Shown here: in pieces, positions 12,129 to 47,932 of the stretch
Layout of the letters: each line of letters starts with the position of its first letter
Numbering within the stretch: position 1 is the stretch's first letter
NCBI GenBank assembly: GCA_029287455.1
Contig: JARFRB010000100.1
Location: 1 to 64,000, forward strand
DNA: 64,000 nt
Reading direction: 5' to 3'
Source: Pelagibius litoralis
GTDB lineage: Bacteria; Pseudomonadota; Alphaproteobacteria; Kiloniellales; DSM-21159
Notes under the pieces: model-generated
The model's input: only the letters and a program-made list of their open reading frames with translations
Told to the model about the DNA's origin: nothing
The model's database searches: none
Made by a program: the position numbers and the translations under genes

Positions 12129-12205
12129 TGGTCGGGGAGAGAGGATTCGAACCTCCGGCCCCCACGTCCCGAACGTGGTGCTCTACCAGGCTGAGCTACT
12201 CCCCG
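12129..12205 (-). tRNA. tRNA-Pro (anticodon CGG)
   Basis: 77 bases with a full cloverleaf: acceptor CGGGGAG paired with CTCCCCG, a D-arm with AGCTCAGCCTGGTAGAGC, the anticodon stem CCACG/CGTGG around the loop TTCGGGA, and the T-loop TTCGAAT. The encoded 3' end is ACCA. Anticodon CGG reads proline codon CCG. It is convergent with ispB. Confidence 0.97.
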
Positions 12206-14865: not shown

Positions 14866-14960
14866 GCTAGCCTATTCAGCGAGTGTCCAGGACAAGGAAG
14901 CAAGATTGCTGTGCCGCCCGGTGGTCGCGCAAGGGGCGGATTGGACAAAACACCCGATTT

Positions 14961-14999
14961 AGAAAACGAAACGGCGGACGAACCGAAGCTCATCCGCCG
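14961..14999 (-). terminator. Terminator of the Hsp20 gene
   Basis: On the minus strand a 12-bp stem (14988-14999 with 14972-14983, two G-T pairs) closes the tetraloop TTCG and is followed by TTTCGTTTTCT. This is a strong intrinsic terminator about 35 bases after the hsp20 stop. Confidence 0.9.
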
Positions 15000-15034
15000 C
15001 AACGCTTGGTAAGTGGCTGGAAAGGAAGCCGAGG

Positions 15035-15502
15035 TTAAGCGGCCGCGTTTTCCAAAACCTTCGCGGGCTTCTTGGCCTTCGCGGTGCCGATGGCGATGCT
15101 GCGCGGCTTCTTCGCCTCGGGAACCTCGCGGGCGAGATCCACGTGCAGCATACCATTCTCAAAGCTGGCGCCGGTGACCTGGATGTGGTCGGCCAACTGG
15201 AAGGTCCGGCTGAACGAGCGGGTCGCGATGCCGCGGTGCAAGTACTGGCGATCCTTATCGCCGTCCTTTTCCTTGCGGCCCTCAACCAACAACGAAGCCT
15301 CCTGAACGGTCACGTTCAGCTCGCTCTCCGCGAAGCCGGCAACCGCCATGGTGATCCGATAGGTGTCCTCGCCGGTTTTCTCGATGTTGTAGGGCGGATA
15401 GCTGGTGCCCGTGTCAACGCGCGCGGCGTTGTCCAGCGTCTGCATCATCCGATCGAAGCCGACGGTGGCACGAAAAAGGGGAGAAAAATCATAACTACGC
15501 AT
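15035..15502 (-). CDS. Small heat-shock protein (Hsp20/IbpA)
   Basis: 155 residues, IbpA size. It binds unfolding proteins in the cytosol and holds them for refolding. The N-terminus MRSYDFSPLFRATVGFDRM is characteristic of the IbpA class; the alpha-crystallin domain spans about residues 38-130 (YNIEKTGEDTYRITMAVAGF to NGMLHVDLAREVPE). A C-terminal I-x-I appears as SIAIG. The ATG at 15502 has GGAGGA eight bases upstream; an in-frame extension to 15544 is rejected because the family starts at MRSYDF. Expression is probably heat-controlled both by a sigma32-like promoter and by a ROSE-like leader. Confidence 0.93.
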   Translation of the reverse strand: MRSYDFSPLFRATVGFDRMMQTLDNAARVDTGTSYPPYNIEKTGEDTYRITMAVAGFAESELNVTVQEASLLVEGRKEKDGDKDRQYLHRGIATRSFSRTFQLADHIQVTGASFENGMLHVDLAREVPEAKKPRSIAIGTAKAKKPAKVLENAAA

Positions 15503-15614
15503 ATCCATATCCTCCAAGAGCGATAGGTTGATGCGGTCCACCACATGGTCTGACCGCGGTTACTAATGCGGATCGCGGTTCGGAAACCCAAGTTGCGGCG
15601 TTTCCTCGCGATCT
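15503..15614 (-). promoter_or_regulatory. ROSE-like RNA thermometer leader
   Basis: The predicted leader of about 110 bases folds into hairpins. One is GCGGTC/GACCGC (15552-15557 with 15533-15538). Nearest the start codon TCGCT (15523-15519) stands opposite GGAGGA (15515-15510), the Shine-Dalgarno sequence. A U(U/C)GCU element masking the ribosome site next to the start of an hsp20 gene is the defining trait of ROSE thermometers in alphaproteobacteria. Not folded by program here. Confidence 0.6.
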
Positions 15615-15620
15615 GAACCT

Positions 15621-15649
15621 TAGGTGGGGATTGCGGCCCCATTTGCAAG
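15621..15649 (-). promoter_or_regulatory. Candidate heat-shock (sigma32) promoter
   Basis: CTTGCAAA (15649-15642), a 12-base spacer, then CCCCACCTA (15629-15621) on the minus strand. This resembles the sigma32 pattern CTTGAAA and CCCCAT-TA. Transcription would start near 15614, about 110 bases before the hsp20 ATG. Confidence 0.5.
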
Positions 15650-15799
15650 AGGCCGAACGCAAGGGGAGAGTCCCCGTTTCGCGGACCTCGGAAACTCCAC
15701 CTTAAGGCACACTCCCTTAGACTGGCTTCCCCGTTTGGCGCTAAGAGCCTAAAATATAACAGGAATTCACGACGGACTTGAGGATGGGAGCGCGCCAAG

Positions 15800-16201
15800 A
15801 TGGCCCGACTGGATGGCACCCACGCGATGTTCGAGAAGACCTATCAGGAAGCTCTCGGGCTCACGCGGGAAGCCCGCGACTACGTCGCTTTCCAAGAGAG
15901 GCGTGACCAATCAAGCCTGGTGCCACTCGATCAACTTACAGCGTCCTGCGAGTCCATGCGGGTCACGGCGCGCCTGACCCAGGTCATGGCCTGGCTCTTG
16001 GTACAGAAGGCGGTCCACCAGGGCGAGATGACCCGCGAGCAAGCGGCGGATCCCGAACTGCGCCTAGCGGGGCAGCATATCTGCGGCGTCAGCAATCAGC
16101 AGGTCAACGAGACTCTGCCACCGCGCCTACGGGACTTACTGGAAAGAAGCCACCAGCTCTACCGGCGCATTGAGCGCTTAGACGCCCTAATGGACGGCTG
16201 A
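15800..16201 (+). CDS. rcdA: RcdA-like regulator (DUF1465)
   Basis: 133 residues, mainly helical, matching DUF1465. The Caulobacter member, RcdA, is an adaptor that helps ClpXP degrade the cell-cycle regulator CtrA; whether this protein does the same cannot be read from sequence. Conserved blocks: FEKTYQEALGLTREARDY at the start, ESMRVTARLTQVMAWLLVQKAV in two overlapping helices and RDLLERSHQLYRRIERLD at the end. ATG at 15800 follows GGGAGCGCGCCAAG. Located by rpmE, as in other alphaproteobacteria. Confidence 0.82.
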   Translation: MARLDGTHAMFEKTYQEALGLTREARDYVAFQERRDQSSLVPLDQLTASCESMRVTARLTQVMAWLLVQKAVHQGEMTREQAADPELRLAGQHICGVSNQQVNETLPPRLRDLLERSHQLYRRIERLDALMDG

Positions 16202-47129: not shown

Positions 47130-47520
<391 letters not shown>

Positions 47521-47932
47521 AATTTCTCTCCACGCGGGCGGCAAATCGGATAACCGCAAATATTGGGGGTCATGGTTAATGGCCCACAACAAAATGATTC
47601 CCCTACAAGAACATTTAATGAACATCATCTTGCCAAATTCACGTTCGAATCTCAATTTCACCGATTTCACCTCGCCTCAGAAAAACCAAAAGACAATCCC
47701 GCGGAACCTTCGGCAGTTAGAGAAATCACCCGTTTCAGCCCTTGTCGAATACTGTCACTTCCATTGACACCCATAATTGCCCATGATATCCCATGATGTC
47801 CCATAACCGAACCAACCCATCCCATTTTCGGGGTTGGCGAACAGCAGTGTCGCCGGGGGTGGATCAGGCGGGGGCGGAGGGCAAGACGGGGGTGACGCGA
47901 TTTGCGTCGCCGGGCTGCGAGCGGAGTCAGGG
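47521..47932. other. Regulatory region before mraZ
   Basis: 412 bases with no convincing gene. It is AT-rich in 47530-47760, where two overlapping plus-strand frames (47563-47796, 47579-47767) look like chance. The right part holds the promoter and MraZ boxes of the division cluster and a Gly-coding stretch that I treat as leader. Confidence 0.7.
47764..47825 (+). promoter_or_regulatory. MraZ operator and dcw promoter
   Basis: Four CCCAT boxes at 47770, 47780, 47790 and 47800, exactly ten bases apart, with two further at 47816 and 47821. Read on the minus strand they are ATGGG repeats, as MraZ binds. A -35 TTGACA (47764-47769) with a possible -10 TATCCC (47787-47792) after 17 bases places the boxes on the promoter, so binding should repress the cluster. 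Confidence 0.8.

Follow-up and report, generated by a model that had tools for sequence, protein, structure and literature searches.

The window analysed here, a stretch of 64,000 nucleotides from Pelagibius litoralis, carries on its minus strand a small heat-shock gene, hsp20, whose ATG is preceded by a leader of approximately 112 nt (from the inferred transcript start) running from a probable sigma32 promoter at 15649–15621. The question raised by this locus is whether the leader is an RNA thermometer of the ROSE type, and whether heat would therefore act on the gene twice, as a preliminary description had proposed: once through sigma32 at the promoter and once through melting of the RNA that covers the ribosome-binding site. 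The features on which the argument turns are the following.

15642–15649, minus strand: sigma32-like −35 box CTTGCAAA, part of the highest-scoring sigma32-type pair within the 200 bases upstream of the ATG
15621–15629, minus strand: sigma32-like −10 box CCCCACCTA, separated from the −35 box by a 12-base spacer
15571–15613, minus strand: hairpin I (predicted fold; inner-stem covariation in chosen relatives; matched by covariance models R2 and R3, described below)
15533–15557, minus strand: hairpin II (predicted fold; covariation in alignments A1 and A2, described below)
15505–15527, minus strand: hairpin III, the presumed thermosensing hairpin, masking the Shine-Dalgarno sequence and carrying a bulged G at 15521 (predicted fold; alignments of relatives)
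15519–15523, minus strand: ROSE motif UCGCU, the anti-Shine-Dalgarno (sequence; T[TC]GCT in relatives' leaders)
15510–15515, minus strand: Shine-Dalgarno sequence GGAGGA (sequence; in predicted hairpin III all but one of its six bases are paired)
15035–15502, minus strand: hsp20, encoding an IbpA-type small heat-shock protein of 155 aa (PF00011)
14971–15000, minus strand: terminator-like hairpin 3' of hsp20 (consensus scan only: 13 pairs, then a T-rich tail)

The hsp20 product matches PF00011 with E 2e-21, above the cut-off, and the NCBIfam IbpA model with E 7.3e-48; because the latter score, 162 bits, falls below that model's cut-off of 212, we refer to the protein as IbpA-type and not as IbpA. 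We place its start at the ATG at 15502–15500 (minus strand), in agreement with a protein comparison in which 79 of 80 loci match from residue 1 onward; an alternative in-frame ATG at 15508 lies just 2 nt past the GGAGG. Downstream, the terminator-like hairpin is one of two such sites found in the region by consensus scan, against 1.1 expected. The divergent neighbour on the plus strand (15800–16201) belongs to the DUF1465 family, with a weak likeness to the protease adaptor RcdA (95.6 of 170 bits), and a gap of approximately 300 bases separates its start from that of hsp20. Elsewhere in the window, class A RNase P RNA (47133–47521, plus strand) and a tRNA (12132–12205, minus strand) exceed their Rfam thresholds, and these two are the only matches at Rfam gathering scores in the whole window.

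Folded by itself, the leader (15616–15500) is predicted to form three separate hairpins, with identical minimum-energy and centroid structures and a free energy of −40.5 kcal/mol; its advantage over 200 shuffles is modest (z −2.07), with six of the 200 folding equally well. Hairpin I combines an outer stem (15613–15607 with 15577–15571) and an inner stem, GGAAAC/GUUUCC (15605–15600 with 15587–15582), with a bulged G at 15599. Hairpin II pairs GCGGUC (15557–15552) with GACCGC (15538–15533) and has an inner ACC/GGU helix. Hairpin III pairs CCUAUC-(G)-CUC with GAG-GAUA-(U)-GG, and within it UCGCU (15523–15519) is predicted to pair with the opposing GGAGGA (15515–15510). The single base G15521 is unpaired both in the minimum-energy fold and in the consensus structure of the relatives. 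When the minus strand is read directly, all of the sequence pieces named in the preliminary description are present where it had placed them, among them TCGCT facing GGAGGA and the upstream GCGGTC/GACCGC hairpin.

A rival pairing of the Shine-Dalgarno sequence appears when coding bases are included. In two of three such folds GGAGGA pairs with UUCUCC (15485–15480, codons 6–8), with preference for this pairing at 25 °C in the 135-nt fold and at temperatures up to 30 °C in the 145-nt fold. Under either pairing, hairpin III or UUCUCC, the Shine-Dalgarno sequence is predicted to be hidden. With regard to hairpin I, its unpaired G (15599; NGCC...GGG) recurs in many relatives and is also present in the consensus of the Rfam ROSE family RF00435, and the NGCC...GGG pattern resembles the bulged-G duplex formed between the motif and the Shine-Dalgarno sequence in hairpin III.

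Comparison with related leaders indicates which parts of this fold are conserved. Relatives were taken from the 80 loci, found by protein similarity, and from a search of 58 genomes belonging to the family and order (the own genome among them), 57 of which have an hsp20 match. Motif counts cover 104 leaders of hsp20 relatives; own loci, four exact duplicates and L044, whose match does not start at residue 1, were left out. Of these, 99 have T[TC]GCT no more than 45 nt from the ATG, compared with 8 of 104 for a more distal upstream control stretch and 5.8 expected from shuffles, and in those 99 leaders the motif starts 19–31 nt before the ATG, or 21–25 nt in 88 of them.

Two alignments extend this from the motif to the helices. 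Alignment A1 contains 33 relatives' leaders, with rows that we chose and with the own sequence excluded, and yielded model R1; its consensus comprises hairpins II and III. Eight of its 15 pairs changed on both sides versus 3.1 in shuffles, with none of 500 shuffles as high, and 95.6% of its cells are paired, falling to 39–52% after partners were slid. Alignment A2, the source of model R2, covers the full leader in 22 relatives, whose rows were picked after viewing single-sequence folds, a choice that favours hairpin I. Here 12 of 23 pairs changed on both sides versus 6.3 in shuffles, all three helices being included; hairpin I contributes six of its eight pairs, with 89% of its cells paired. 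Across both alignments the share of paired cells is 95–96%, dropping to 39–57% when partners are slid, and covariation exceeds all 500 shuffles and all slides. The cells of hairpin III are paired in 98.3% and 100% of cases in A1 and A2, respectively, and the most conserved alignment columns are the anti-Shine-Dalgarno and the Shine-Dalgarno sequence.

Applied to the window, R1 matches 15491–15571 with 59.3 bits, E 1.3e-13 (E-values of R1, R2 and R3 are rough throughout) and one of 15 pairs non-standard; its runner-up in the window has 14.6 bits, and the next place in the own genome, on contig C33, has E 0.30 among the 150 of 923 first-look candidates that were scored. R2 matches 15497–15620 with 71.1 bits, E 1.1e-18 and none of 23 pairs non-standard. 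Because R1 and R2 both contain the Shine-Dalgarno sequence and the start codon, we built R3 from the same 22 relatives (A3), limited to the region of hairpins I and II and free of the Shine-Dalgarno sequence, the motif and the start codon. It matches 15528–15619 with 36.0 bits, E 2e-6 and two of 13 pairs non-standard, the next best match having E 0.25.

Turning to transcription, the promoter pair with its 12-base spacer is as the preliminary description gave it, whereas the distance to the ATG needs correcting: counted from 15621 it is 118 bases, where 110 had been written. The transcript would start at approximately 15616–15612. The sigma32 consensus is given as CTTGAA - N13-18 - CNCCATAT in the cited part of PMC3669281, and we scored sites over 13 letters, CTTGAA and CCCCATNT. 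The pair CTTGCA-14-CCCCACCT conforms to this consensus and scores 11 of 13. When the own 200-base stretch was shuffled 1000 times, 1.1% of the shuffles did as well (P 0.011). Scores of at least 11 occur in 67 of the 104 relatives' leaders versus 1% of shuffles, and in 62 of those 67 the −10 box starts 98–131 bases before the ATG, compared with 127 here. Among the 25 order loci listed, 14 reach 11 or more, five stand at 10 and six at 9, the last a value that 44% of shuffles attain. A consensus scan of 14900–15820 returned no sigma70-type site.

The rpoH model TIGR02392 finds five places in the own genome, two of them over the cut-off. By gene, three are rpoH-like and lie on contigs C108, C133 and C13, two being over the cut-off and one at 286.5 of 323.1 bits; the two other matches are weaker. 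The sigma32 part of the double control claimed at the outset thus emerges as the weaker half, with rpoH genes present and a consensus match that recurs in many relatives, not in all. We consider it likely that the hsp20 promoter at 15649–15621 is in use and recognized by RpoH. Comparable arrangements are described in the cited sections of two papers: Pseudomonas ibpA has a sigma32 promoter plus a thermometer (PMC3669281), and ROSE genes of S. meliloti are reported to be rpoH-dependent (PMC3989490).

Could the promoter be all that matters, with the leader kept because it stabilizes the mRNA or offers a binding site, and with no thermometer at all? The recurrence of sigma32-like scores among relatives, so far above that in shuffles, would suit such an explanation, as would the predicted persistence of hairpins I and II at temperatures up to 50 °C. 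We nevertheless hold it to be very unlikely, since mRNA stability needs no U(U/C)GCU opposite a Shine-Dalgarno sequence, and it is the anti-Shine-Dalgarno and the Shine-Dalgarno columns that are the most conserved and are paired in 98–100% of cells.

We favor instead, with high confidence in the reading as a whole, a ROSE-type thermometer leader in which heat loosens hairpin III, together with probable transcription by RpoH. At normal temperature UCGCU would pair with the Shine-Dalgarno sequence GGAGGA in hairpin III, leaving one G bulged, and ribosomes would be excluded. On heating, the imperfect hairpin III would loosen and expose the Shine-Dalgarno sequence, with hairpins I and II remaining folded, and RpoH would probably transcribe hsp20 from the promoter at 15649–15621. 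As the proposed scheme joins an RpoH promoter to a thermometer, heat would raise hsp20 mRNA and its translation alike. We infer that hairpin III melts within the physiological range.

Energy calculations bear on this mechanism in part. In the 135-nt fold (ViennaRNA), the mean unpaired probability of GGAGG goes from 0.12 at 25 °C through 0.18 (37 °C) to 0.24 (50 °C); at 37 °C the unpaired share is mostly that of one loop G, the other four bases being unpaired at 1–4%. In keeping with the earlier claim, the Shine-Dalgarno sequence is thus base-paired in the prediction for low temperature, which a thermometer requires. Non-canonical pairs are poorly described by this folding energy model. Hairpin III has a predicted stability of −6.1 kcal/mol at 37 °C, equalled or exceeded by the hairpins of 85 of the 104 relatives. 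In a comparison across leaders, of which only the trend is used because positions are slightly mixed between leaders, Shine-Dalgarno exposure is 0.27 at 37 °C and 0.31 at 50 °C, and E. coli ibpA is also closed in the same calculation (0.02 at 37 °C, 0.03 at 42 °C and 0.07 at 50 °C). A first Shine-Dalgarno finder (63 of 105 leaders below 0.3 unpaired at 25 °C) was set aside, as its positions were shifted in many leaders. Since E. coli ibpA, named in the cited part of PMC3669281 as among the best studied ROSE-like thermometers, is likewise predicted to be closed, the predicted opening does not discriminate for or against melting. Temperature sensing by ROSE elements rests on non-canonical pairs, according to the passage cited from PMC4166951.

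The small predicted opening with heat could also be read as a repressive structure relieved by a ligand, a protein or a small RNA, or as a Shine-Dalgarno sequence hidden mainly by pairing with the start of the coding region, for which the GGAGGA–UUCUCC pairing, preferred at 25–30 °C and below in two of three coding-inclusive folds, would speak. Such an explanation appears extremely unlikely. The sole riboswitch-type match up to E 10 in 15300–15900 is Glutamine-II at 15617–15662, which lies over the promoter and, at 15.7 of 33 bits and E 0.24, was rejected as chance. Moreover, the homologous ROSE leaders are published thermometers, as described in the cited part of PMC3669281.

The thermometer reading is approached from another side by the curated Rfam models. 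When 15300–15900 was searched under permissive settings, the two best of 4227 Rfam families were ROSE_2 and ROSE, both reaching just past the start codon. ROSE_2 (RF01832) aligns end to end with 15496–15567 on the minus strand at 26.6 bits (threshold 65), E 0.002, and ROSE (RF00435) aligns end to end with 15496–15605 on the same strand at 24.4 bits (threshold 45), E 0.19; the latter alignment extends over hairpin I with its unpaired G. The Rfam search that the preliminary description named as a check on its claim therefore gave a divided result, failing at the gathering score and succeeding below threshold in this local stretch. Gathering scores also yielded no ROSE element in the window as a whole or in 40 (20 plus 20) of the 110 relatives' loci L003–L112. 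As its scores lie below the gathering thresholds, we do not file the leader as a member of RF00435 or RF01832 as curated. The caution that it might be a variant form was fair insofar as the leader falls outside the Rfam thresholds, yet its several-hairpin layout is the classical one.

With E allowed up to 10, RF01832 turned up in 21 of the 58 genomes of the order, in none of them over the cut-off, and by eye many of these places are not at an hsp20; this gamma model is too remote for the lineage. Across 190 genomes of the class, RF00435 reached its threshold in none, and E 0.1 or better in 26 (strict filters).

The distribution of R1 matches is different. In the order, with a limit of E 0.1, R1 matches 52 of the 58 genomes; 26 of these 52 supplied A1 leaders and match by construction, and among the 32 genomes outside A1 (own included) the count is 26. 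The six R1-negative genomes (G016, G018, G033, G036, G041 and G046) likewise lack a strong match to this hsp20, having either none or a best E of 1.8e-31 to 1.4e-4. Of the 58 R1 places in the order, 57 overlap an hsp20 start on the same strand. The remaining one, on contig C10 of G012 (E 0.04), is regarded as a false positive: it is not at an hsp20 start and has no clear gene start around it. On relatives' loci outside A1, R1 matches 69 of 72 at E 0.01 or better (74 sources including the own locus, which matched), and these further matches include, by record title, Rhodobacterales, Methylobacterium, Azospirillum and sphingomonads. The sequence parts, the conservation and covariation of the hairpins, their position before hsp20 and the homology of the element across the order are established.

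At the level of the class, 73 of 190 genomes contain R1 matches with E 0.01 or better, 79 places in all (G001 and G005 being A1 suppliers). Judged by the hsp20 matches listed, which go down to E 1e-30, 73 of these 79 places (68 genomes) coincide with an hsp20 start, and six fall at none of the listed hsp20 genes. At least 115 of the 190 genomes have such an hsp20 match (E 1e-30 or better), and set against the 73 with R1 this means that a good part of the hsp20 genes of the class is unmatched by R1. Where RF00435 gives sub-threshold matches, R1 matches 14 of 15 loci at E 3e-5 or better, one of them, L127, coming from a genome used to build R1. In E. coli K-12, R1 picks out the start of ibpA with 20.0 bits (E 4.7e-4) and also ibpB with 16.9 bits (E 0.0029). 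That a GC-rich leader with an ordinary Shine-Dalgarno sequence has produced all this by chance, for which the folding z of just −2.07 and the unreached Rfam thresholds could be cited, has a negligible probability given the E-values of two independent models, R1 and R2, covariation that beats all 500 shuffles and all slides, and 57 of 58 order places at an hsp20 start.

How, then, does the leader compare with known ROSE systems? In the cited portions of PMC3669281, PMC4166951 and PMC11342760, a ROSE-like thermometer is a small heat-shock leader with U(U/C)GCU pairing with the Shine-Dalgarno sequence in the 3'-most hairpin, a bulged G, two to four hairpins, and opening and translation that depend on temperature; the bulged G within U(U/C)GCU is itself part of the published description (PMC11342760), and in 2005 more than 40 ROSE-type elements were predicted in alpha- and gamma-proteobacteria (PMC4166951). 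On sequence and predicted fold, the present leader shares four of these traits: its position before a small heat-shock gene, pairing of the motif with the Shine-Dalgarno sequence, the bulged G and three hairpins. Position, U(U/C)GCU and bulged G, together with the sub-threshold Rfam ROSE matches and the covariance models of relatives, support the identification of a ROSE-type leader made at the outset.

With RF00435, which represents Bradyrhizobium japonicum hspA ROSE1 and its rhizobial relatives, the leader has in common the small heat-shock gene, the motif, the bulged G and several hairpins, and differs from it in score, at 24.4 bits against a threshold of 45. The ROSE genes of B. japonicum are described as having housekeeping-type promoters, in contrast to the sigma32-like promoter here. 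Shared with ROSE_2, the E. coli ibpA family, are an IbpA-type gene, a similar CCAUG/UGG second hairpin and UAUGCGUA at the start; again the score sets the leader apart (26.6 bits, threshold 65). In the R1 alignment, the hairpin III pairs of E. coli ibpA are mostly non-standard, and the match to that gene therefore comes from hairpin II and the start of the gene. Pseudomonas ibpA, as far as the cited part of PMC3669281 describes its ROSE-like element, likewise has U(U/C)GCU against the Shine-Dalgarno sequence in the last hairpin and a sigma32 promoter, but two hairpins in 61–62 nt, compared with three in approximately 112 nt (from the inferred start) here. For the Pseudomonas ROSE-like leaders the same source gives a 3.3- to 8.3-fold rise with temperature.

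The genome has a second hsp20 (L002, on contig C55), with CCUUGCUCGCUGGAGGAGG before its ATG. The leader of this gene (L002 1278–1378) is predicted to form three hairpins, with UUGCU opposite GGAGG and a bulged G in the last. R2 matches it weakly, at 18.1 bits with E 7.2e-5 when the L002 locus is searched and E 0.0015 among 18 sources, and without a proper hairpin II; R1 gives no match there at E 1 or better, and RF00435 scores 20.2 bits, E 0.64. In the second-hsp20 leaders of 20 relatives, chosen from a longer list, CCTTGCTC followed by GAGG occurs in 17; the opposite strand shows it in 0 of the 20 and shuffles would give 0.01. R2 matches 11 of the 20 at E 0.1 or better. The second hsp20 leader is a weaker ROSE-like element. 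A more speculative proposal, which we regard as doubtful, is that hairpin I is a second temperature-sensitive or tertiary-contact unit tuning the melting of hairpin III, and that the two small heat-shock genes of this lineage carry separate ROSE leaders that differ in set point.

For the organism, these data suggest that synthesis of the small heat-shock protein probably takes place mainly once heat has loosened the leader fold. The biology of the element is already known, and what is new is its occurrence in a lineage that the Rfam thresholds miss; in the literature covered here, no paper joins Kiloniellales and RNA thermometers. At its threshold, RF00435 misses much of the class, with 0 of 190 genomes versus 73 of 190 for R1 at E 0.01 or better, and annotation by Rfam thresholds will under-report likely heat-controlled translation in this class. 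Alignments A1 and A2 could seed an improved ROSE family model.
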